NCBI GenBank assembly: GCA_003153975.1
Contig: PMBZ01000030.1
Span: 365-38,447, forward strand
Length of the DNA stretch: 38,083 nucleotides
Direction of reading: 5' to 3'
Origin: Hyphomicrobiales bacterium
Lineage (GTDB): Bacteria; Pseudomonadota; Alphaproteobacteria; Rhizobiales; Rhodomicrobiaceae
Shown: piece after piece, positions 1,676 to 27,224 of the stretch
Layout: every line of letters starts with the position of its first letter
Position numbering within the stretch: the stretch's first letter is position 1
Notes under the pieces: generated by a model
Database searches by the model: none
Told to the model about the DNA's origin: nothing
The model's input: the letters and a program-made list of their open reading frames with translations, nothing else
Translations under genes and position numbers: made by a program

Positions 1676-4603
1676 ATGTATTCTTCGAGCATAGCTGAGG
1701 ACAACGCCCGGCATGGGGCAACTCGCGATTCAGGGCTCGAAGCCGTCGGGGCCATCCCCTGGGGCACGCATTTCTGCCAATTCCACTCAGGCAAGGACGA
1801 TCTCCTAGAAACGATTGTCCCCTATATGAAGGCGGGGCTGGAGGCGAACGAACTTTGCCTTTGGATCACCTCCGATGTGCTGGGCATCCACGCGGCCGAA
1901 GATGCGCTGCGCAACGCAATCCCTGAGTTCGGCCGCTACCTGGCGGAAAAGCGGATCGAAATCGTTCATAGCAGCCAATGGTACGGCAGCGACGGCAGTT
2001 TCGACGCGGACCAGTTGCTAGAAAGCGCCGCGAACATACTCGATGCAGCGCTAAGACGCGGCTTCGAGGGTTTGCGGACAACTGGCGATCTTTCTTGGCT
2101 GGGGCGGGAAGGCTGGAAGGAATTTATCCGTTACGAATGCGGTTTGGACAGCGCCGTAAACTCCAAGCCGATACTGGTTCTCTGCACATATCCGCTCAGC
2201 AAATGCGGTCCTCGCGAAATCATCGATGCCGCCGCCAATCACGAGTTCGCGTTGATACGCGGCGCTGAAGGCTGGGAGGTTCTGGAGAACACGGCCCGGC
2301 GCAGGATCGAACGGGAGTTCAAGAAGTTCGTATCTCTGGCCGGCAACAGCTCGGAATTCATCGGCATTTGCGACATGGATTTCGCGCCGTCCTACATCAA
2401 CGATGCGGGCTTGCGGATGGTTGGGCTCGACAATCTGGCCCAACTCCAGGAGGCATCGGCTGGCGCTCTCTTTTTTCCCGAAGATCGCCGGTTCGTCCAC
2501 GATGAGTTCATACCGCGCGTCTTCGCCGAAGGCCGGGCCGAAACCGTGATCCGCTTCCGTCACTTCAAGACGGATGCGCCTTTGTGGATGATCTGCAACA
2601 TTTTTTTCCTCAAGGGAGACAAGGGCGAGCCTACGGGGCTTGCAACCGTCAGCCGGAACATCACCGAGCACAAGCTTGCCGAAGATGCCGCCAAATGGAA
2701 TGCGCGGCGCAACGAACTGCTCTCCAGCGTAGCTGCCCGCCTGCTCAGAACTCGCGATGCCGAAGCCGAGGTTGAAGAGCTTTGCCGGAAGGTCATGACC
2801 TTTCTCAATTGCGATGTGTTCTTCAATTTCCTCGCGGACGAAAAAGAGAAACGGCTGCGCCTCAACGCTTCCGCCGGCGTTTCCCCCGGGCAGATCCAGG
2901 GTATGGAAACGATCGCTTATGGAGCCACGATCTGCGGCACGGTTGCCCGCGATAGATACCGGATCATCGCCGAATACATTTCAAGCAGCGATTCACCGCT
3001 GACGGCCAGAATCAAGTCCTTTGGCGTCGAGGCCTATTGCTGCCATCCGCTCATGGCTCAAGACCGGGTCATCGGCACATTGGCGTTCGGCACACGCACC
3101 CGGCAGAGATTTACCAGCCGCGAGGTCCAGGTCATGGCATCGCTGGCGGACCTCGTGGCGATGGCGATGAATCGCATCCAGACCGAGAAGGCGCTGTGTG
3201 AAAGCGAGAGGCAACTCAGGCAGCTGGGCGACAGCCTACCGGACAGCGCCGTTTACCGCTATGGCCACGAACCCGATGGCTCGCCGCGCTATTATTACCT
3301 GAGCGCCGGCATCGAGCAGTTGAACGGTGTCAAGATCGATGACGTGCTGGGGGATGCGGGCACGCTTCACCGGCAGGTTCTGCCGGAATACTTGCCCCGC
3401 CTCATCGAGGGCGAGCGGCGAAGTGCACGGGAGCTATCGGACTTCGAAATGGAAATTCCCATGCGGCGGACGGATGGCGAAATCCGCTGGATGCGATTGA
3501 AGTCCCGGCCGCAAAGGATGCCGGATGGGCGCGTCATATGGGACGGGGTGCAAACCGATATCACCGCGCGGAAAAACATGCAGGAGACCCTGCGTGTGAG
3601 CGAGGAGCGGCTCCGCGCCATCGTAGGCACGGCCATGGACGGCATCATCGTCATCGACTCGCTAGGGGAGATTCAGTCCATCAATCCCGCGGCGGAGCAG
3701 ATGTTTGGGTACAGCTCGGCGGATGCGGCCGGGCAGAGCATGACGATGTTCATGCCGGAGCCCTACCGGCTGAGGCACCGCCTCCGGGTCGCGGCTTCGC
3801 TCAACAATCCCGTGGCCCCACGGTTTCAGCAGGTTGAGGTCGAGGGACTTCGCCGGGACGGCTCGATATTCCCGGCGGAGCTTTCGGTGGCGCCCTGGGA
3901 TGCCGATGGCGAGCGCTACTTTACAGGGATCATCCGCGACGTTACCCAGCGCAAACGGCGCGACGAGAAGATCAATGTGCTGTTGCGGGAGGTTAATCAC
4001 CGCTCCAAGAACATGCTGAGCCTGGTTCAGGCGATCGCGTCGCAGACCGCCGCCAGAGACCCCGCCGAGTTCGTCCGCCACTTCTCCGAGCGCATACGCG
4101 CACTGGCCGCAAGCCAGGACTTGCTGGTCAAAAGCCAATGGCAGGGCATCAGCATCGAGGAGCTGGTGAAATCGCAGCTTGCATACTTCGGCGATCTATT
4201 GGGCAGCAGGATCGAACTTAAGGGGCCGCCGCTGCGCATTGCGGCTCCGGCAGCGCAGTCGATCGGCATGGCGCTGCACGAGCTTGCGACGAACGCCGGG
4301 AAATATGGCGCGCTCTCAACCGGCGCGGGGCGGATCGCAATCGGCTGGAGCCTTAACAACGGCCCATCAGGTAAGCTCCGCTTCGACCTGCGCTGGACGG
4401 AGAGCGGGGGGCCGGCCGTATCGGTGCCAACGCGCCGGGGGTTCGGTTCGATCGTCGTCGAAACCATGCCGCGCATGGAATTGGACGCCGGCGCCGAGTT
4501 GCACTACGCACCGGAAGGACTGCGCTGGCATCTCGACTGTCCGGCGGAGGCCGTGCTTGAGGCTGGCGACGATCCATCCGCGTTCAGGATGATCGCGCAA
4601 TAA
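1676..4603 (+). CDS. Multi-domain sensor histidine kinase: MEDS (DcmR-type) + PAS + GAF + PAS/PAS + HWE/HisKA_2-type kinase
   Basis: N-terminus GAIPWGTHFCQFHSGKDDLLETIVPYMKAGLEANELCLWIT (MEDS-like); several PAS segments with PAC-like ends; LLREVNHRSKNMLSLVQAIASQTA (HWE/HisKA_2 phosphoacceptor); ATG at 1676 follows GGCAGGAGGGG. Confidence 0.9.
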   Translation: MYSSSIAEDNARHGATRDSGLEAVGAIPWGTHFCQFHSGKDDLLETIVPYMKAGLEANELCLWITSDVLGIHAAEDALRNAIPEFGRYLAEKRIEIVHSSQWYGSDGSFDADQLLESAANILDAALRRGFEGLRTTGDLSWLGREGWKEFIRYECGLDSAVNSKPILVLCTYPLSKCGPREIIDAAANHEFALIRGAEGWEVLENTARRRIEREFKKFVSLAGNSSEFIGICDMDFAPSYINDAGLRMVGLDNLAQLQEASAGALFFPEDRRFVHDEFIPRVFAEGRAETVIRFRHFKTDAPLWMICNIFFLKGDKGEPTGLATVSRNITEHKLAEDAAKWNARRNELLSSVAARLLRTRDAEAEVEELCRKVMTFLNCDVFFNFLADEKEKRLRLNASAGVSPGQIQGMETIAYGATICGTVARDRYRIIAEYISSSDSPLTARIKSFGVEAYCCHPLMAQDRVIGTLAFGTRTRQRFTSREVQVMASLADLVAMAMNRIQTEKALCESERQLRQLGDSLPDSAVYRYGHEPDGSPRYYYLSAGIEQLNGVKIDDVLGDAGTLHRQVLPEYLPRLIEGERRSARELSDFEMEIPMRRTDGEIRWMRLKSRPQRMPDGRVIWDGVQTDITARKNMQETLRVSEERLRAIVGTAMDGIIVIDSLGEIQSINPAAEQMFGYSSADAAGQSMTMFMPEPYRLRHRLRVAASLNNPVAPRFQQVEVEGLRRDGSIFPAELSVAPWDADGERYFTGIIRDVTQRKRRDEKINVLLREVNHRSKNMLSLVQAIASQTAARDPAEFVRHFSERIRALAASQDLLVKSQWQGISIEELVKSQLAYFGDLLGSRIELKGPPLRIAAPAAQSIGMALHELATNAGKYGALSTGAGRIAIGWSLNNGPSGKLRFDLRWTESGGPAVSVPTRRGFGSIVVETMPRMELDAGAELHYAPEGLRWHLDCPAEAVLEAGDDPSAFRMIAQ

Positions 4604-7473: not shown

Positions 7474-7905
7474 TTAAGCAGTGCCAATGAAATCGAGTTC
7501 AAGCCGGCGCCGGTAAGGTGCCGCGCGATGCTCGATCAGATAGACCTCCTGCCAAGTTCCCAGCGCCAGCCGGCCGCCGCGCACAGGCAGTGAAATTTGC
7601 ACCGCGGTTAGCATGGTCTTTATATGCGCCGGCATATCGTCGGGGCCTTCGCTGCGGTGCCGGTAGGGCCCGCCTTCTGGCGCAAGCCCTCGCAACGCGG
7701 CCGAAAGATCGGTCAGCACATCGGGGTCGGCATTCTCCTGCACGCAAAGCGAAGCCGAAGTGTGGGTGCAAAACACCGAAAGAAGCCCGGAACCGGCGTT
7801 TCGGCGCGTAAGGAAGCGCTGCAACTCGGGCCCCAGCGCGTAGAAGCCCGCCCCGCGCGTCTCGATGCTCACTGTGCCGCATATGTGAAAGGTGCCAGGG
7901 CTCAT
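7474..7905 (-). CDS. YjbQ/UPF0047 family protein
   Basis: SVFCTHTSASLCVQENADPDVLTDL...YRHRSEGPDDMPAHIKTML...LALGTWQEVYLIEHR; ATG at 7905 preceded by GGAGGAATC. Confidence 0.93.
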   Translation of the reverse strand: MSPGTFHICGTVSIETRGAGFYALGPELQRFLTRRNAGSGLLSVFCTHTSASLCVQENADPDVLTDLSAALRGLAPEGGPYRHRSEGPDDMPAHIKTMLTAVQISLPVRGGRLALGTWQEVYLIEHRAAPYRRRLELDFIGTA

Positions 7906-8043
7906 GCTTAAGATTCCTCCAAAAAAATAGTCCGATTTTAGCCGGCGTTTACGCCGTGTTTGCATTTCCTAAGCATAGTAACGGCTTAGTGGCGGAAAAG
8001 CACCTTCAAGGGGGGCCGCGGAAGAGCACGCGTTCTAGGATCT

Positions 8044-10167
8044 ATGTCTCAGCAAGGCACAGCGAAAGCCGGGCATGGCGGCAGCGCCAGCAGCGGTAAT
8101 GGCGGCGGAACGGCCAGGGAAGACCTGGCTGCCGGGACCGTGCGCGAAAGTATTGCCGGGACGGACCCTTCGGCTGAGGATAGCCAATCCCCAATATTCG
8201 GCGACGGCCAGAGCGAAGCAGAGGCTCAACTTTATGCGCGCCTCGATTTGGTGAGCAATTATCAGCGTCCGAGCGGTTTCCCGCCGCTTGACGCATTGAA
8301 TGCCAGGCTGAACGAAGAGGCGTACCGGGACAGTCTGCTTTTTCCCCGTTCCGCGGAGGATTTGGCCTTTTCTCTCCCGGGCGATGACGATGTTTTGGAT
8401 CTGGACGGGGAACTGGCCGGCGAGCCCCACGGCGGCCTGTTGTGGATCGACCATCGTTTTACGGAACTCAAGCTCCTTCTTTCGCGGAGGGAAGAGGGCC
8501 AGCGCGAGCTTGAGCAGATCAAGGCAAGCCTAGGCGAAATTCTCGTTCGCCTCGAAAAGCTCGCGGCGGAAGTGCCAAGCGGCAAGGCTCTGGAATCCGT
8601 GGAAAGCAAGCTCGATACGTTGTCCGGCTCCGTCGAGGCGGCGCGGGAGCAATCCACCACCGATGCCAGCCGGATTTCGCGGGCCGCCGAGGAACTTCTC
8701 GCCGCCAGCGTCAGGTTTCAAGAAGTGCCCGCAAGGTTCGAGGCGGCCGCGCGCCGCACGGTGGAAGGCCTGGGGCAAACCGTGGCCGCTACAGCGTCGC
8801 GGGCGGCGATGATGACCGCGCATCATGTCGGCGCGCAGCAGAAGCCGGCCGTCGAAGCAGACACGGCGGAGCGACTGGAGGCCGAGCTGCGTGCACTGAA
8901 CCTGCAGTCGCGCGAGACCGGCGAGCGCACAGAGGCGGCACTCGATCGCGTCCATCACACGCTCAAGGATTTTCTCGGCCGGGACCCCGGTCCCCGCGCC
9001 GATGTCAACACACAACCTCCCAGAAAAAGAGCAGGCCTGCACGTGCCAATTTCCGGTAATTCCGCTGTCTACAAGCGCGGCGATACGGGCTTCGGCGCCG
9101 CCCCCGCAAGCGAGGCGCGGCTCGACACGCTTTTGAGGCGCGATCCACCGCCTTCCGATCCCGCCCTTTTCCAGGCACTGCGCGAGGCGGATCTGAAGTA
9201 CGGCCGGAAAACACAGCAAAATAGGCCGCAAACAGCCGGCGGGCGGCAGGCTTTCGCGGGTGCATACGCTCTCCTCGACGACGAGAAGACCGTGCCGCTT
9301 GGCGGCATAGCGGCGGTTGCGTTCATCTTGCTTCTGGTAAGTGCCGCACTGTTCTACCTTCACACTCAGGGCCGCATCGACGTACGTATTTCGGAAGTGC
9401 CCGCGGCAATCCAGCAACTGGCTCATGCGCCCGCGCAGCCGGCTCCGGCGGCGGTGGCATCCGCCGGCGTGAGGCAGAAGGGTCCCGCGTTATTGGCCGC
9501 CGCCGATGGCAGCAACGGCGTGCAAGCCGCTTCCCCCGCCGAGGAACTGGAGGCGCTCGAAGCCGCCGCGCGCCACGGCGACCGCGACGCGCAATTCCGC
9601 ATTGGCGTGCGCTTCCTGAACGATGGCGGCGTGGACGGCGGACCGTCGGCGGCCGCGCGCTGGTTCTCCAAGGCCGCGATGCAAGGGCATAACGAGGCTC
9701 AGTTCATGCTGGCGTCGATGCTTGAGCGCGGCGCGGGCGTTGAAAAGGACGAAGCGAAAGCCGTCGTGCTCTACCGGCAGGCTGCAAGTGCCGGGCATGT
9801 GCGGGCGATGCACAATCTTGGCGCCATGCTCTTGAAGAACGCCACGGCGCTGGCCTATCGCGAGGCGGCCTCGTGGTTCGGGCAGGCGGCGGCGAAGGGC
9901 TTTCCCGACAGCCAGTATAATCTTGCGCTGCTCTATGAACACGGGCTTGGCATCGAGCAGGATTTGTTCCGCGCCTATCAGTGGTATATCGAGGCAGCCA
10001 AGGCGGGGGTGAAAGAAGCGGCGGTGAAGGCCGAACAGCTCCGGCGCATGCTGCCTTCCGCGCAAAATGCCCCAAGCGGCGGGAAGGCCGGTCAATTCGG
10101 TTCCTGGCGGCCGGTCGTTGTAGACACAAAGAAAAACGCCAGCCTCCGCGGCGCCACCCGGGGCTGA
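8044..10167 (+). CDS. SEL1-like repeat membrane protein with long N-terminal, partly coiled-coil region (PodJ/localization-factor-like architecture)
   Basis: Heptad-rich N-terminal part; single TM VPLGGIAAVAFILLLVSAALFYL; C-terminal SEL1 repeats (AQFRIGVRFLNDGGVDGGPSAAARWFSKAAMQGHNEAQFMLASMLERGAGVEKDEAKAVVLYRQAASAGH...). Confidence 0.85.
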   Translation: MSQQGTAKAGHGGSASSGNGGGTAREDLAAGTVRESIAGTDPSAEDSQSPIFGDGQSEAEAQLYARLDLVSNYQRPSGFPPLDALNARLNEEAYRDSLLFPRSAEDLAFSLPGDDDVLDLDGELAGEPHGGLLWIDHRFTELKLLLSRREEGQRELEQIKASLGEILVRLEKLAAEVPSGKALESVESKLDTLSGSVEAAREQSTTDASRISRAAEELLAASVRFQEVPARFEAAARRTVEGLGQTVAATASRAAMMTAHHVGAQQKPAVEADTAERLEAELRALNLQSRETGERTEAALDRVHHTLKDFLGRDPGPRADVNTQPPRKRAGLHVPISGNSAVYKRGDTGFGAAPASEARLDTLLRRDPPPSDPALFQALREADLKYGRKTQQNRPQTAGGRQAFAGAYALLDDEKTVPLGGIAAVAFILLLVSAALFYLHTQGRIDVRISEVPAAIQQLAHAPAQPAPAAVASAGVRQKGPALLAAADGSNGVQAASPAEELEALEAAARHGDRDAQFRIGVRFLNDGGVDGGPSAAARWFSKAAMQGHNEAQFMLASMLERGAGVEKDEAKAVVLYRQAASAGHVRAMHNLGAMLLKNATALAYREAASWFGQAAAKGFPDSQYNLALLYEHGLGIEQDLFRAYQWYIEAAKAGVKEAAVKAEQLRRMLPSAQNAPSGGKAGQFGSWRPVVVDTKKNASLRGATRG

Positions 10168-11158: not shown

Positions 11159-14100
11159 TTACTTCTCCGGCAACAGCTTGCCATCGTCCCGCAGCACGAT
11201 GTAGATCGCGGGGATGACGAGCACCGTCAGCAGTGTCGAGGAGGCGAGCCCGAACAGAAGCGAGATCGCCAGTCCCTGGAAGATCGGGTCGGCCAGGATC
11301 ACCGCCGCGCCGATCATGGCGGCAATCGCCGTCAGCAGGATCGGCTTGAACCGGATCGCGCCCGCCTCAAGCAGCACCTGACGCAAGGGCGTATCCGCGT
11401 CCCGCCGCTCGCGGATGAAGTCCACCAGCAGGATCGAGTTGCGCACGATGATGCCCGCCAGCGCGATGAAGCCGATCATCGAGGTCGCGGTGAACGGCGC
11501 GCCGAACATCCAGTGCCCCAGCATGATGCCGATCAGCGTGAGCGGTACCGGCGTCAGGATCACCAGCGGCAGCTTGAACGAGCCGAACTGCCCGACCACG
11601 ATGAAGTAGATGCCCAGGATGGCGATGGCGAAGGCCGCGCCCATGTCGCGGAAGGTGACGTAGGTCACTTCCCATTCGCCGTCCCAAAGCATCGTGGGCT
11701 TGGATTCGTCGTCCGGCTGTCCGTGCAGCGTGATCTGCGGCTTCTCGCCAGGCCCCCAGTTCGCTTTGTTTATGGCGTCGCGCACCGCGAGCATTCCATA
11801 GACTGGCGCTTCATAAGCGCCGGCAAGCTCCGCCGTCACCATTTCGGCGGGGCGGCTATTGTGCCGGAAGATCGGGAAGGAGGCCCGCTCCTTCGACAGG
11901 CTCACCACATCGCCCATTTCGACGATGGAGCGGTTGCCGGGGATGGCGTTGGCCGGCACCGGCGTGGAGAGCGTGTGCTGCGAGACCGAAAGCTCCTTCT
12001 TGGGCAGGGCGATGGCGATCTCGACCGGATGGCGGCCCTCGCCACGGTAGGAGTAGCCCACCGGCACGCCGGAGAGATAAGCCTGGATCGTGTCGTAGAC
12101 ATCGCGCTGCTCGACCTTGAAAAATTCGAGCTTGTCCTGGTCGATGGCGACGCGGAGCCGTTCGGCCGGCACGCCAAAGCTGTCATCCACATCCACAATG
12201 AACGGGATGCTTTCGAAGATTTTACGGAGCTTCGCCGCTGTTGCACGGCGTGCCTCTGGCGTGGGGCCATAAACCTCCGCCAGGAGCGTCGACAGCACTG
12301 GCGGTCCAGGCGGAACCTCGACCACCTTCAACGCCGTGCGCGGCGGCAGTTCAAGGCCCTTCAGCCGCTCGCGGACATCGAGCGCGATCTGATGGCTCGT
12401 GCGGCTGCGCTCCGCCTTGGGCGTGAGATTGAGCTGCAAATCGCCCTGCTCCGGGTTGCTGCGGAAGTAATAGTGGCGCACCAAGCCGTTGAAATTGAAC
12501 GGCGCGGCCGTGCCGGCGTAAGACTGGATCGTGGTCAGCTCCGGCAAGGTTTTGACGCGCCCGGCTACCGCCTGCAGGATGCGATCGGTTTCCTCAAGGG
12601 AGGAGCCCTTGGGTAAGTCGATCACAATCTGCATCTCCGACTTGTTGTCGAAGGGCAAGAGCTTCACCGTCACCGCCTTGAAATAGAAGAGCGTCAACGA
12701 CAGAAGCGTGGCGACGCCAACGCCGATGAGGAACCGCAGCGCCACTTTCCGCGTCCGCAGGATAGGCCGCGCGGCGGACAGGTAGGCGCGCGCGAGAAAA
12801 CCGCCGCCCTCGTCATGGTTGTGGCCGCCGGCGTCCGGCTTCACGAAGCGCACCATCAGCCAGGGCGTCACCATCACCGCCACGAAGAACGAGAAGATCA
12901 TGGCGGCCGACGCGTTGGCCGGGATCGGGCTCATATACGGCCCCATAAGCCCCGAGACGAACAGCATGGGCAAGAGCGCCACCACCACGGTGAGCGTGGC
13001 GATGATCGTTGGATTGCCCACCTCGGCCACGGCCTCGATCGCGGCCTGCACCCGGCTGCGTCCGTCGTGCATCGCCCAGTGCCGCGAGATGTTCTCGATC
13101 ACGACGATGGCATCGTCGACCAGGATGCCGATGGAGAAAATCAGCGCGAACAGGCTCACCCGGTTGATGGTGTAGCCCATGATCCACGAGGCGAAGAGTG
13201 TGAGCAGGATCGTGGTGGGGATCACGATCAAGACGACGGCGCCCTCGCGCCAGCCGATGGCGAACACGATCAGCGCCACGATGGAGACGGTCGCGAGGCC
13301 TAGGTGGAACAACAGCTCGTCGGCCTTGTCGCTCGCGGTCGCGCCATAGTTGCGCGTGACCTCCACGTTAATGTCGCTGGGAATCGAGTTCCCCCGCAGA
13401 AGGTCAAGCTTCTCGACGAGCTTGGCCGCGATATCGACCGCATTGGCGCCGGCCCGCTTGGCGATGGCGACGGTGACGGCCGGAACGCGGTTCAACTCCC
13501 CATCCGGGCCTTTGGAGAAGTTCCAGGACTGCAACTCCAGCGGCTTGCCACCCACCACGATGTTCGCCACGTCGCGCACGTAGACGGGGCGGCCGTCGCG
13601 GGTCGTAAGCAGCAGCAGGCCGATATCGGGGATGCCGTGCAGCGTCTGCCCGGCCACTACCGGCAGGGCGTGATCCCGGTCGCGGATTTCGCCCGCCACG
13701 AAGGAGCGGTTCGCCGATTTCACCTTGTCCACGAGCTGGGCCAGCGTGACGCCATACAGCGAAAGCTTTTCGGGATCGGGCTCGACGCGGATCTGATCGG
13801 GCGTGCCGCCAACAAGATAGGTAAGGCCCGCGTTATCGGCCTTGGCCAGCTCGATGCGCAGGTTCTCCGCCAGATGATAAAGCGCGTTCGGCGTCCATCG
13901 GTCCGCCGCTTCCGGCTTCGGCGACAGCGTTACCGATAGGATCGCCACGTCGTCGATGCCGCGGCCCACGATGAGCGGCTCGGGGATTCCAATGGGAATG
14001 CGGTCGAGATTGGCGCGGACCTTGTCGTGCACGCGCAGGATCGCTTCGTCCGCCTTGGTGCCCACAAGGAAGCGCGCCGTCACCAGCACCCGGTCGTCAT

Positions 14101-15786: not shown

Positions 15787-16032
15787 TTAAGCGCGCGTAT
15801 TCCCAAGAAGTTCGGAGGCGATCTTGTCGCATGCCGACTCGTCGAACTCTTGCTTGAGGTCTTTCGTTTGCATCAAGCGGAGCTGATATTTCAAATTGTC
15901 TGGAGAATATTTTTGACCGACCATAACCTGAATTCTGAAAGCCAAATCCTGAAACACCGCCGGGCTTAAAGTAGCCGGAATGTGCCAATGCTCGCGCAAG
16001 ACTGCTTCTACTTTATCGGAATTAACCGCCAT
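15787..16032 (-). CDS. Hypothetical protein (81 aa)
   Basis: MAVNSDKVEAVLREHWHIPATLSPAVFQDLAFRIQVMVGQKYSPDNLKYQLRLMQTKDLKQEFDESACDKIASELLGNTRA; protein-like composition, co-directional with 16091..16531. Confidence 0.65.
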   Translation of the reverse strand: MAVNSDKVEAVLREHWHIPATLSPAVFQDLAFRIQVMVGQKYSPDNLKYQLRLMQTKDLKQEFDESACDKIASELLGNTRA

Positions 16033-16090
16033 CGCGGATGCCTCTCGGTTATTTAGTGTATGTTAAAGCAAAAGGGGGAAGTAACAAACG

Positions 16091-16736: not shown

Positions 16737-18035
16737 TCAACGCTTCGCTTCCATCGCGATCATGGCGAGCGTCGCCAGGACAACGGCGATGTTCTTCGTC
16801 AGCGGCCCAAGCGGCTCGATCCAGGCCTCCGGCACGGCAAAGCAGGCGAGGATCGTGAAAACGGCGACAGTGGCAAGCTGAAGAAGGCCGGTTTGGACGG
16901 GCCTGATATTGAGGAGAAGCGCGAGCCCGAGCACGCCGTCCACGGCCGCTCCGCCATAGACAAGGGCCGCGGCCTGCCAGCCAGATACGCCGAGCCCGGC
17001 GGCCATCGCCACGCTCTTTTCCAGCGGATAGACGAAGGCCGACACGATGGCCGTGGCAATCCAGACGATGGCAAGGCCGATGCGAAGCGCCGGGCGCAGG
17101 AAGAACAGGCGCGCGTGCCAGAGCGCGGCTTCGGAGGACGGCTCGGAGGCAAGCGCCGCCCCGAGTTCGCGCGGCGTCCAGCCGAGGGCTTCGGCCATGG
17201 GTGCGGCGGGCGCCGTGTTGCCGCGCCTGAGCATGGTGAGGCTGTCCCGCGACAGCGCATCGAAGCCGAGCAGCCGCGCGAGCGGGATCGAAGCCCGAAG
17301 CACCCATTCAGGCACGGAAAACGCGCGCGCTGGCGCCAGCCCCAGCCATCGCCGCAGCGCTTGCGTCAGCCCATCCGTGGTCATGGGCACGGGGCCAACC
17401 AGGTCCAGCAGGGGCGGCGCGCTTCCCTCGCGCTCAAGCAGAAGCCGCGCCGCGTGGACGAGATCCGCAACATGGATCGGCTGCACCCGCCAGCTTCCAT
17501 CGCCCAGCCGCGGCGTCCATGGCAGGGCGGCAAGCGCGGCGAATAGTGCCGTGCTCTGCCCGCCCTGGCCGATGACGAGCGACGGCCGGATGACGGTCCA
17601 GCCGGTGAGGCCATGCTCTCGCGCGAGCTGCATGCAGCGCTGGTCCGCCGCTGCTTTTGTGAGGTGGAATTGCGTCTCTGCCCCCTCCTCCGCGCCGAGC
17701 GCCGAAATCTGGATAAGCTTGGGAATTTTTAGCGCCGCGCAGGCTCCGAACAGCGCGGCCGGGCCGGCCATGTGCACCTGCTCGAAGCTGTTCGCGCCAT
17801 GGTCCCGGAAAATGCCGGCGGCGTTGACAACGGCGTCCACATTCGCAAGCCGCGCCTGCCAATCGCCGGCACTGTCCCTCGCGAAGTCGCAAGCGATGGC
17901 TTCGGCATTGGGAAAAAGACGCTGGAGCAAGACCGGATCGCGCCCGCAAGCAACGATCTCGTGGCCCGCGCCCAGCAGCGCCGCCGCGATCCTTGCGCCG
18001 ATAAAGCCGCCTGCCCCTGCAATCAGAATGCGCAT
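16737..18035 (-). CDS. NAD(P)-binding SDR/epimerase-type protein fused to a DoxX-like membrane domain
   Basis: MRILIAGAGGFIGARIAAALLGAGHEIVACGRDP (Rossmann GxxGFIG); C-terminal hydrophobic segments ALRIGLAIVWIATAIVSAFVYP...LLQLATVAVFTILACFAVPEAWIEPLGPLTKNIAVVLATLAMIAMEAKR. Confidence 0.88.
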   Translation of the reverse strand: MRILIAGAGGFIGARIAAALLGAGHEIVACGRDPVLLQRLFPNAEAIACDFARDSAGDWQARLANVDAVVNAAGIFRDHGANSFEQVHMAGPAALFGACAALKIPKLIQISALGAEEGAETQFHLTKAAADQRCMQLAREHGLTGWTVIRPSLVIGQGGQSTALFAALAALPWTPRLGDGSWRVQPIHVADLVHAARLLLEREGSAPPLLDLVGPVPMTTDGLTQALRRWLGLAPARAFSVPEWVLRASIPLARLLGFDALSRDSLTMLRRGNTAPAAPMAEALGWTPRELGAALASEPSSEAALWHARLFFLRPALRIGLAIVWIATAIVSAFVYPLEKSVAMAAGLGVSGWQAAALVYGGAAVDGVLGLALLLNIRPVQTGLLQLATVAVFTILACFAVPEAWIEPLGPLTKNIAVVLATLAMIAMEAKR

Positions 18036-18265
18036 GCGGCTCCCCTTAAACGGCCGAACGCCGGTTTCCGTGGCGGTCCCAGGGGACGGCTATGAGTACC
18101 TGTGTAATGCAAAATCAACCTTCCCTGCTGGTCCGGCTACGCAAAATAAGCATTTTTTGATTTTGAAGCAATATAACATAGAAGTCCTAAGTATTCATTA
18201 AGTGTCATATGGTGGCGTATATCATTGACATATAACGCTTTTTAGCCGAATCGCGGGCTGCTTTC

Positions 18266-18438
18266 GTGGTTAAAATCAAACCTGCTGCTATATTTAACGG
18301 GATTCTTGAAACGCAGAAAACGACCCAAAATCGAAAAAAAATCGCAGAAATGTGCCTCTGGTACGCATGCGATACATGCGTTTACCATATTCGAATTAAG
18401 CATAACGGGCGCCTACGGGAAATATACGGATTGTTAAG
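18266..18438 (+). repeat. AT-rich element, copy A of a two-copy element in this window
   Basis: Shares ordered blocks with 26428..26255 (-): TGGTTAA, ATATTTAA, CGACCCAAA, TTTACCAT-N7-TTWASCAT and TGTTAAG, at near-identical spacing. Confidence 0.65.
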
Positions 18439-18887
18439 GCATCAGGCGCCGTGGCCGGGTTCTTAAGCGATCTTGCTTCGCCAGCCGATGTTTGGCGGTT
18501 CGGGGCCACCTTCTCTCCTCCCGTTGCAGCCCAAAAAATGTCTCTCCAGGGGCGCAACCTGCCATTCAAGGAATCCGAACCAAGTTTTGAAGCCCCCCCC
18601 CCAACAAGCGGGAGTGGCGAGCCTGCCGCACGGCTTATTGAGAACTATACACGCATAGCTGAATTTCATAACTCTATCCTGCATCCGCACTCGCAAAAAT
18701 GGGCGCCGTAAGATCCTGGGACGCCGACATCTACGTTCTTGCATTGTCCGCACGGAGCTTGCGCGGGCCTTGTCGCAGCGCTTTTCTGCAGCTTATTCGT
18801 GTAGAGTTGCCGGATGTCCGGTAAGGTTGTGGAAAACTTTCCTGTTCCGGTTGTGTTCTGGGCGAATTGGCGCCATCCTGTGCCCAT

Positions 18888-18935
18888 CCGCAAAGCATCC
18901 CGGAATTGCCGGGTATAATTCCGGGATGCTTGCGG
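18888..18935. repeat. Strong intergenic hairpin/inverted repeat
   Basis: CCGCAAAGCATCCCGGAATT-GCCGGGTAT-AATTCCGGGATGCTTGCGG; 19-bp arms with one bulged A. Confidence 0.85.
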
Positions 18936-19171
18936 AGTTCTTTGAAAGAGTGGGCGTATTGTGGAGAATAAGATAGGTTATTCTATCGTCTCCGATGCCG
19001 CCTGGTAGATTAAATGCCGTTACGGGGATGAACGATATCTGGCGTTGGAGATGGCAAATCCATCGCTGGCGGACGGCCGCCCTGCCCCCGGTGAGAGACG
19101 GTATCGCCAGCAGCGCGGGAGTCCGCTTGCGGCCTGGAGGCGAGGCATCCGGCCGGATTTGACGCACTTTG

Positions 19172-20071
19172 CTAAGGCCACTTCACCTCCGGCGGCATGG
19201 ACGACAAAATCGAATCCACGTTCCCGCCGGTCTTCAGCCCGAAGATGGTGCCGCGGTCGTAGAGCAGGTTGAACTCCACATAGCGGCCTCGGCGCACAAG
19301 CTGCTCCTCGCGGTCCGCCTTCGTCCACGGCGTGTTCATGTTGCGCCGCACGAGCTGAGGGTAAATGCCGAGGAAAGCGCGGCCCACGTCCTGCACGAAG
19401 GCGAAATCGGCGTCCCAGTCGCCGGAGTTTTGATAATCGAAGAAAATGCCGCCGATGCCGCGCGGCTCATTCCGGTGCCTGAGCCAGAAATACTCGTCGC
19501 ACCATTTCTTGTAGCGGGCGTAATCGGCAACCGCGTGGCCGGTGCAAGCCGCCTGCATGGCGGCGTGAAAATCCAAGCTGTCCGCGTCTTCCTGCATGCG
19601 CCGCCTGTCCAGCACCGGGGTCAGGTCCGCGCCGCCGCCGAACCACCATTTCGAAGTGACGATGAAGCGCGTGTTCATGTGCGCGGCGGGCACGTTGGGA
19701 TTGTGCGGATGGGCGATCAGCGAGATGCCCGACGCCCAGAACGCGGGGTCTTCCTCCGCCCCCGGAATTTGCGCCCGGAATTCAGGCGCGAACTCGCCGT
19801 GGACGGTGGAGACGTGCACGCCAACCTTCTCGAACACGCGGCCGGCCATGATGGCCATGGTGCCGCCGCCGCCATCGCCGCCAGGGTGATTGTCACGCTT
19901 CCAGGGCTTCCGCTCGAACCTGCCCGCGGGCAGGCTGGCCGTGGCCCCCGCCCCAAGCTCATCCTCGACGCGCTCGAACTCCGCGCAAATGTCATCCCGA
20001 AGCGCCGCGAACCAGGCGCTCGCTTTCGATTTTTTTTCCGCAATGTCTTCGAGCGTCGAGGAGTCTCGCAT
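19172..20071 (-). CDS. hemF: Oxygen-dependent coproporphyrinogen III oxidase
   Basis: [43 protein letters not shown]...[11 protein letters not shown]...[25 protein letters not shown]. Confidence 0.97.
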
Positions 20072-25469: not shown

Positions 25470-26204
25470 ATGAAGACTCAAGAGCACTACGACAATCATC
25501 TGTCTTCCTTTTATTCCTGGATGATCGGCGACTTCGGCAAAGCCGTTGCTTCGCAAAGGGAGCTGTTCGAAAAGTATGGGATCGCCCCGCGAGCCTCCGG
25601 GATAGCCATCGATCTCGGCTGCGGCACGGGTCTGCAATCCCTGGCTCTTTCGGAGCTGGGATTCGATGTTCACGCAGTCGATTTCTCGCTGCCGATGCTC
25701 GGCGAGCTTCGCGCGCGTTGCCCCCGGATCGAGACCCGGCAGGGCGATTTGAGAGACCTCGAATTTGCCAAGTTTCTCGCCCCGGAGGTTATCGTCTGCA
25801 TGGGAGACACGCTCACCCATCTCGATTCCAAATCCAGCGTCGAATCTCTCGTCCAGGACTGTGCTTCACTGCTCCAGCCGGATGCTCGTCTCATCCTGAG
25901 TTTCAGGGATTTAAGCCGCCTGCCGGCGCTCGCGGACCGCTTCATGCCGGTGCGAGCGGACGAGGACAGGATTTTGACCTGCTTCCTTGAAGACGCAGGC
26001 GAAAAGGTGCGCGTGTTCGATTTGCTTTATGAAAAGCAGGGGCCGGCCTGGAAGCTCAAAAGCAGCTATTATGAGAAGCTCAAGCTGGCTGCGGGGTGGG
26101 TGCGGCAGCTTCTGCAATCTGGCTTCGAAGTTTCCGGCGAGACGTTGCCAGGCGGGCAAGAGCTGATTGTTGGCCGGAAGCGGGCGGCACCCGGCGCGCT
26201 GTGA
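25470..26204 (+). CDS. Class I SAM-dependent methyltransferase
   Basis: AIDLGCGTGLQSLALSELGFDVHAVDFSLPMLGELRAR (motif I and acidic loop). Confidence 0.9.
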   Translation: MKTQEHYDNHLSSFYSWMIGDFGKAVASQRELFEKYGIAPRASGIAIDLGCGTGLQSLALSELGFDVHAVDFSLPMLGELRARCPRIETRQGDLRDLEFAKFLAPEVIVCMGDTLTHLDSKSSVESLVQDCASLLQPDARLILSFRDLSRLPALADRFMPVRADEDRILTCFLEDAGEKVRVFDLLYEKQGPAWKLKSSYYEKLKLAAGWVRQLLQSGFEVSGETLPGGQELIVGRKRAAPGAL

Positions 26205-26254: not shown

Positions 26255-26428
26255 CTTAACAAACCGTTCATTTTGCGTAAGCGCGCATGATGGTAAATTC
26301 CGTCATGGTAAACGCGAAATACGCACGTTTGCCGCACGCCGATTTTTGCGAAATTTTCCGCGCTTTGGGTCGATTTTCGCGGTTCCAAAATCGCCTTTAA
26401 ATATGATCGCAGATCGCGAATTAACCAT
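26255..26428 (-). repeat. AT-rich element, copy B of a two-copy element in this window
   Basis: See 18266..18438. Located between convergent genes (methyltransferase and HIT). Confidence 0.65.
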
Positions 26429-26441
26429 AAGCGCGCAGCCA

Positions 26442-26461
26442 GCTGCGGCGCACGCCGCAGC
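26442..26461. repeat. Perfect hairpin GCTGCGGCG-CA-CGCCGCAGC between convergent genes
   Basis: 9-bp perfect stem followed by ATTTTACT on + strand; possible terminator. Confidence 0.55.
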
Positions 26462-26598
26462 ATTTTACTCGCAAACTCAAAGCGTTACACTGGCAGCCCG
26501 CACTTAACGCTTCTTCAAAGCGCATCTGCTAAACTTATTCAACATCGAAAAGCGCCGCAAAATCGCGGTCCAGCCTGGCAGACAGGGTTAACAGGTGC

Positions 26599-27024
26599 TT
26601 AAGCCATGGCGGTGCGAAGCTTGGCGGCGTGCTGCTCCAGAAGTGCTGCATCGGCCATCACACCGGCCGGGCGCAGGGCGACGCCTTCGAAGCGCGGGAT
26701 GACATGGACGTGCAGATGGAACACGACTTGGCCGCCTGCCGGCTCGGAGAATTGCGAGATGGTCATGCCATCGGCGTTGAAGGCATTCTTCGCGGCGATG
26801 GCGACGCGCTGCACGGTCTGCACGAGCGGCACGAGCAAGCCCGGCTGGGCATCGAGAATGTTGCGCGCCGGACTCTTCGGAATGACAAGCGCGTGGCCGT
26901 CCGAGCGGGGCATGATATCCATGAAAACGAACGTATCCGCGTCCTCCCAGACGAAGTTGCAGGGGATTTCCTTGCGCAGGATTTTCGCGAAAATGTTGTT
27001 CGGATCGTATGCTGGCGTGTCCAT
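26599..27024 (-). CDS. HIT family protein
   Basis: NIFAKILRKEIPCNFVWEDADTFVFMDIMPRSDGHALVIPKSPARNILD...HLHVHVIPRFEG. Confidence 0.95.
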   Translation of the reverse strand: MDTPAYDPNNIFAKILRKEIPCNFVWEDADTFVFMDIMPRSDGHALVIPKSPARNILDAQPGLLVPLVQTVQRVAIAAKNAFNADGMTISQFSEPAGGQVVFHLHVHVIPRFEGVALRPAGVMADAALLEQHAAKLRTAMA

Positions 27025-27224
27025 GAGCGTCTCCACCGGCTTCAAGCTTGGCCCCTTTTGGCCCCACTCCGGCACGCCGGTCAAGCGGCGCTGCTGCGGG
27101 GGCAGTGGAGAAAGCCGCTTTTCTTCGCCTGGGCGCCCCCGGCCCATCCGCCGCAAAATTTGCATGCCGGTGGTGCAAATCGCGGAAATCCCGCTAACCT
27201 ATGACAAGACCGCTCCATGGAGAG

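Follow-up and report, generated by a model that had tools for sequence, protein, structure and literature searches.

Intergenic DNA elements with a predicted IHF site and spacers that vary in whole helical turns form a dispersed family in a Rhodomicrobiaceae genome

Two AT-rich intergenic segments in a 38,083-nt stretch of DNA from a Hyphomicrobiales bacterium of the Rhodomicrobiaceae (contig PMBZ01000030.1, assembly GCA_003153975.1; hereafter the window) raise the question of what kind of feature they are. A first-pass annotation had described them, as elements A and B, by an ordered series of shared blocks, and had recognised no feature type that would explain them. Both the places and the block order given there are correct. 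Local alignment of A with the reverse complement of B scores 77, against a mean of 19.9 (SD 2.5) and a maximum of 36 for 1000 pairs of dinucleotide shuffles, and the segments are as AT-rich as described, with a GC content of 41% in A and 45% in B compared with 61.5% for the window. A lies upstream of a minus-strand SDR-DoxX gene (16737-18035), and B between the convergent ends of a HIT gene (26599-27165, minus strand) and a methyltransferase gene (25470-26204, plus strand). The pair also has further relatives: searching their own genome (4.77 Mb in 268 contigs) with A by blastn returned 40 matches at E below 5e-10, and a sequence-only profile of 31 cores gave at least 148 matches at E below 0.01. 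A and B are members of a dispersed family of non-coding intergenic DNA with about 150-200 copies, fragments included.

The segments first reported make up only the right-hand core, 171 nt long, of a longer element, whose conserved blocks reach about 170-215 bp further to the left (Table 1); conservation ends at the right edge of the core and goes on leftward. The whole element measures about 340-390 bp and runs through blocks L0, L1 and L2, the last an IHF-consensus site followed by an A/T tract, into the core. Anchoring with position matrices defined the left-hand blocks as L0 gTaAcgccatgTTAACnctcc, L1 CgAttTTGAantAATnTAGCAgAanngtcTTgagnAAncgTTAAg and L2 TAnnnnATTGAtata. The left-module model R2 matches the window at 18100-18229 in copy A (E 1e-14) and at 26490-26595 in copy B (E 6e-13). 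In copy B the stop codon of the HIT gene falls inside the first TTAA of L0, and the core carries a one-base insertion compared with most copies. A third candidate in the window (15924-16066) had come in by profile iteration and is not counted as a copy, as a model built without it gives no match there.

Table 1 Positions of the blocks of copies A and B in the window, and of a separate repeat family in the congener G001
Feature	Position	Strand	Basis
Copy A, block L0 (GTAATGCAAAATCAACCTTCC; family consensus gTaAcgccatgTTAACnctcc)	18104-18124	+	Sequence; family block from 60 copies
Copy A, block L1 (family consensus CgAttTTGAantAATnTAGCAgAanngtcTTgagnAAncgTTAAg)	18158-18202	+	Sequence; family block; left-module model R2
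Copy A, block L2, IHF-like site on YAANNNNTTGATW strand	18218-18230	+	Coordinates read from sequence
Copy A, A/T tract 8 bp past L2	18239-18244	+	Read from sequence
Copy A, 171-nt core (element A)	18267-18437	+	Profile match, E 7e-35
Copy B, block L0, TTAAGCACCTGTTAAC, exact TTAA-N7-TTAAC	26587-26602	-	Sequence; family block
Copy B, block L1	26503-26547	-	Sequence; family block; left-module model R2
Copy B, block L2, IHF-like site TAACGCTTTGAGT	26475-26487	-	Coordinates read from sequence
Copy B, A/T tract	near 26461-26466	-	Read from sequence
Copy B, core (element B)	26256-26427	-	Profile match, E 9e-32
G001 palindromic repeat copies	L165 12581-12745; L180 17904-18073; L176 5854-6082; L168 16539-16857		

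We collected 124 distinct core matches for study, 122 of which score above 60 bits. No insertion or deletion is found across the 171 nt in 88 of the 124, the median pair among the first 31 copies is about 65% identical, and the closest pair differs at 9% of positions. Invariant columns are scattered through the core (TGGTTAA, TATATTTAAnGG, CGTTnACC, ATTnACCAT and TTAA), with phased A-tracts within columns 50-85; a sinusoidal periodicity of about 11 bp in core base composition was near the shuffle limit. In a second subfamily (41 of 121 copies) the L1 region looks different, while L2 and the core are mostly unchanged. Twelve nearly whole contigs (708 kb) hold 27 core and two left-only matches, a density of about one per 24 kb, and about a fifth of all matches are fragments or strongly diverged copies. 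The left-module profile finds 102 places, nearly all adjoining a core. About a dozen are orphans, L0-L1 modules with no recognisable core nearby (C98:4003-4116, C69:11006-11108, C124:1522-1619 and C180:6945-7022 of the same genome, among others), and these are either decayed copies or a module used independently.

The spacers between the blocks fall into discrete length classes. L0 and L1 are mostly 33-34 or 43-46 apart (60 copies), L1 and L2 are separated by 0-3 or 10-14, and L2 and the core by 1, 10-12, 20-24 or 31-35 (79 copies in each case), so that all three spacers vary in steps of about 10.5-11 bp. The Rayleigh p-values (below 1e-20) are nominal and inflated by shared descent, and two further tests were therefore run. 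Among 23 pairs of nearest relatives, with no member shared between pairs, spacer lengths differed by more than 3 nt in 17 cases, by 9, 10 (three), 11 (nine), 12, 24 (two) and 33, and the other non-zero differences were only 1-2 nt. The second test used the 41 copies of the second subfamily, which had played no part in defining L1 and L2, anchored on the fixed IHF consensus. In the 28 usable copies the distance from IHF site to core is 35-36, 46-47 or 57-58, coinciding with the main subfamily. On a tree of the cores, itself weakly informative, the spacer classes switch at least 23-24 times; for L1-L2, shuffled labels yield about as many changes. A DNA complex with fixed faces demands whole-turn steps; no constraint from RNA or coding that would produce them is known to us. 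Helical phasing at a bend is normally shown site by site, with insertions of 5 or 11 bp; more than 100 natural copies in one genome amount in effect to the same phasing experiment, in which only whole-turn changes have been kept.

These spacings also bear on two of the original suggestions, a family of small RNAs and decayed short coding elements. GC-rich inverted repeats do occur in the L0-L1 spacer of individual copies, where stems of at least 6 bp are found in 22% against 10% of shuffles, as a family of structured RNAs might show. However, neither strand of the core, nor the GC-rich left spacer, shows conserved pairing or a consensus structure, no match to Rfam was obtained, and the spacers change by 10-11 rather than by pairs of bases. 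No reading frame stays open across copies, and none of 122 cores overlaps a gene called with our own codon-usage gene caller. A reading of the family as structured small RNAs or decayed small genes is already contradicted by these data, and we regard it as highly improbable.

The L2 block follows the pattern YAANNNNTTGATW, which is the IHF consensus WATCARNNNNTTR read on the opposite strand. This pattern is fitted at eight or more of nine positions by 74% of 121 copies, compared with 6% of shuffles, and the fit is confined to the L2 region and to one orientation (7% in the other). A/T-rich columns 24-29 lie 8 bp beyond L2, at the far side of the WATCAR half, and an A/T tract is placed likewise beyond the lambda H' IHF site. 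The genome itself encodes IHF-alpha (above the family cut-off) and two further DNABII proteins. The consensus fit suggests that IHF may bind at L2.

Resident copies are under selection. In 14 non-overlapping pairs of up to 25% divergence, differences per site fall from 0.40 in the most variable to 0.03 in the most conserved columns, a contrast somewhat inflated by defining the column classes on the same copies. The difference rate of close pairs is thus about 13-fold lower at invariant columns, indicating that the resident copies are constrained, and the trend is also present in the three pairs under 15% divergence. Gene neighbourhoods, by comparison, are varied: the flanking pairs of 109 copies are tandem in 61 cases, divergent in 26 and convergent in 22. 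Promoter-bearing gene pairs are not enriched at the copies relative to other intergenic regions, orientation is random, and no GC-skew or strand bias was found. With 22 of the 109 copies between convergent genes and no orientation bias, the first-pass view that a shared promoter role is unlikely holds. Regular spacing along the chromosome was hinted at by contigs with two or more copies, and was dropped when the full contigs (708 kb, 29 elements) did not differ from random; selection bias probably explains the early hint. For many copies the end of the contig is no more than a few hundred bases away (for example C236:208, C147:608, C229:57451, C233:52164 and C43:103), which probably biased that spacing test.

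Since the site is intergenic, in either orientation and beside any neighbours, folding or anchoring is likelier than an effect on local transcription. We lean slightly towards the interpretation that each copy is a nucleoprotein site, bent by IHF and occupied by several proteins, with an architectural, chromosome-folding role, possibly linked to the cell cycle; of the three guesses first offered, the nucleoid site, in what was put as a nucleoid or segregation site, comes nearest. IHF or an IHF-like DNABII protein would bind the central L2 and bend the DNA, bringing the left arm (L0 and L1) against the right-hand core to form a loop, and we infer that one or more proteins reading TTAA-type motifs contact both arms. 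Such a complex would need its contacts on the same face of the helix, so that spacers on either side of the bend could shift only by whole turns and the core would tolerate almost no insertions or deletions. It would work at intergenic positions irrespective of its own orientation and of the function of the adjacent genes. Three findings stand against a folding site: the family does not occur in four congeners, an odd gap for a housekeeping site maintained over long periods; the share of fragments and diverged copies is what gain and loss over time would leave; and the full contigs lack the regular spacing that an anchor might show.

A candidate for the partner protein is CtrA, which the genome encodes (as found with an approximate query sequence). 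TTAA-N7-TTAA with 11-bp half-site spacing is the CtrA form (PMC7200025, PMC1914354), and in Hyphomonas neptunium 211 of the 222 CtrA sites are intergenic and the motif is TTAA-N7-TTAAC (PMC7200025). Here, L0 reads TTAA-like-N7-TTAAC, exactly TTAA-N7-TTAAC in copy B, and the 11-bp spacing is kept in L0, at the end of L1 and at the right end, with half-sites that are mostly imperfect. The strict TTAA-N7-TTAA count is 0.26 per element, compared with 0.01 in shuffles and 0.00 in flanks, and that of TTWACCAT is 1.27 per element against 0.05. The copies might accordingly be read as a regulatory set of enhancer, silencer or titration sites for a transcription factor such as CtrA, acting with IHF, a view that partly overlaps the folding-site interpretation. 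We consider it unlikely, as GTAA or TTGA, rather than TTAA, predominates among the first half-sites, and the excess of loose TTWW-N7-TTWW comes mainly from phased A-tracts and is unspecific, N6 equalling N7. Furthermore, no box lies within 400 bp upstream of the genome's own ctrA, copies between convergent genes are as common as for other intergenic regions, and the congeners have CtrA without the element. CtrA as the partner is suggestive only, a lead and not a finding.

Outside its own genome the family was not found. Neither model matched the four congeners or three other genomes of the same family, and 398 genomes of the order contained no family member. The sole match there, in G099 (E 2e-5), is partial, extends over the boundary of a called gene, comes with neither a left module nor additional copies, and was taken as chance. 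No match was obtained in 385 genomes from the class under stricter filters, the core pattern gave one match over 84,980 GTDB species, about the number we estimate for chance, and it was not found in viral contigs, plasmids or phages. A look for orthologous or empty sites found the HIT locus not syntenic in the congeners and no flanking gene pair adjacent in a 400-kb sample of congener G001, and no similar family is present in that sample. As the searched sets may omit records very near the window's genome, we give the range as this species and perhaps close relatives.

Copies that are dispersed, strictly intergenic, restricted to one lineage and accompanied by fragments also recall mobile DNA, and mobile repeats with IHF sites have been described, the 155-bp Correia element among them (PMC2229807). 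The chief competing view is that of an IHF-assisted mobile element: a non-autonomous, MITE-like element would be mobilised in trans by a putative recombinase, its synaptic complex requiring the IHF bend and helical phasing, and insertions into genes would have been purged. There is, however, no young burst, given the distance between even the closest copies. Resident copies stay constrained after they separate and hold their length, where neutral decay would scatter insertions and deletions, and no inverted-repeat ends were seen on reading the consensus. We therefore regard mobility as somewhat unlikely to account for the family.

Among known elements, RIB/RIP of E. coli are BIMEs that carry an IHF site and are built of REP palindromes. 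The present family resembles them in being dispersed, intergenic and multicopy, with one IHF site (here predicted) in each copy and a suspected nucleoid role, but it is longer, lacks palindromic units and conserved pairing, and has spacers quantised in helical turns. Should the elements be architectural, they are countable, sequence-defined folding stations in a bacterium; should they be mobile, their geometry is constrained to a degree unusual for a mobile DNA family. It is a more tentative proposal that they constitute a previously undescribed kind of site, in which 150-200 lineage-specific, host-maintained, IHF-centred loops with selected helical register and a dedicated partner protein would organise the chromosome or couple it to the cell cycle. 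The Correia/NEMIS elements of Neisseria are likewise non-coding and almost exclusively intergenic with an IHF site (here predicted), but have terminal inverted repeats, target duplications and a length of about 105-155 bp (PMC2229807), whereas no terminal inverted repeats were seen here on reading the consensus of an element of about 340-390 bp. The Caulobacter origin Cori, with its CtrA sites and one IHF site (PMC1914354), is an alphaproteobacterial intergenic multi-protein site of a few hundred base pairs with TTAA-N7-TTAA-type boxes, as here; unlike this multicopy family with imperfect boxes, it is single-copy and has DnaA boxes, which in our elements occur at chance (0.07 against 0.09 in shuffles, one mismatch allowed). 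The CIR of Caulobacter and Brucella are also intergenic repeats of alphaproteobacteria, but are CcrM-associated, about 110 bp long, with two long inverted repeats and a conserved GANTC, and are kept between species (PMC2229807); neither that size nor those inverted repeats, conserved GANTC or cross-species conservation is seen here. GANTC shows no excess over shuffles (1.10 against 1.11 per element). This CcrM site was observed at two preferred positions, in core columns 35-46, in about half of the copies.

Congener G001 has repeats of its own. A different, palindromic intergenic family (GCGCATACGTTTG ... CAAACGTATGCGC and a second inverted repeat) is present in at least four copies in 400 kb (Table 1). 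Three similar intergenic stretches on L173, all within 10 kb (3017-3298, 7485-8072 and 12807-13155), look, by eye, like putative cobalamin riboswitches, and L175 carries two stretches (8164-9501 and 18251-19377) with internal tandem repeats of about 69 bp, and the two stretches match one another in many registers.
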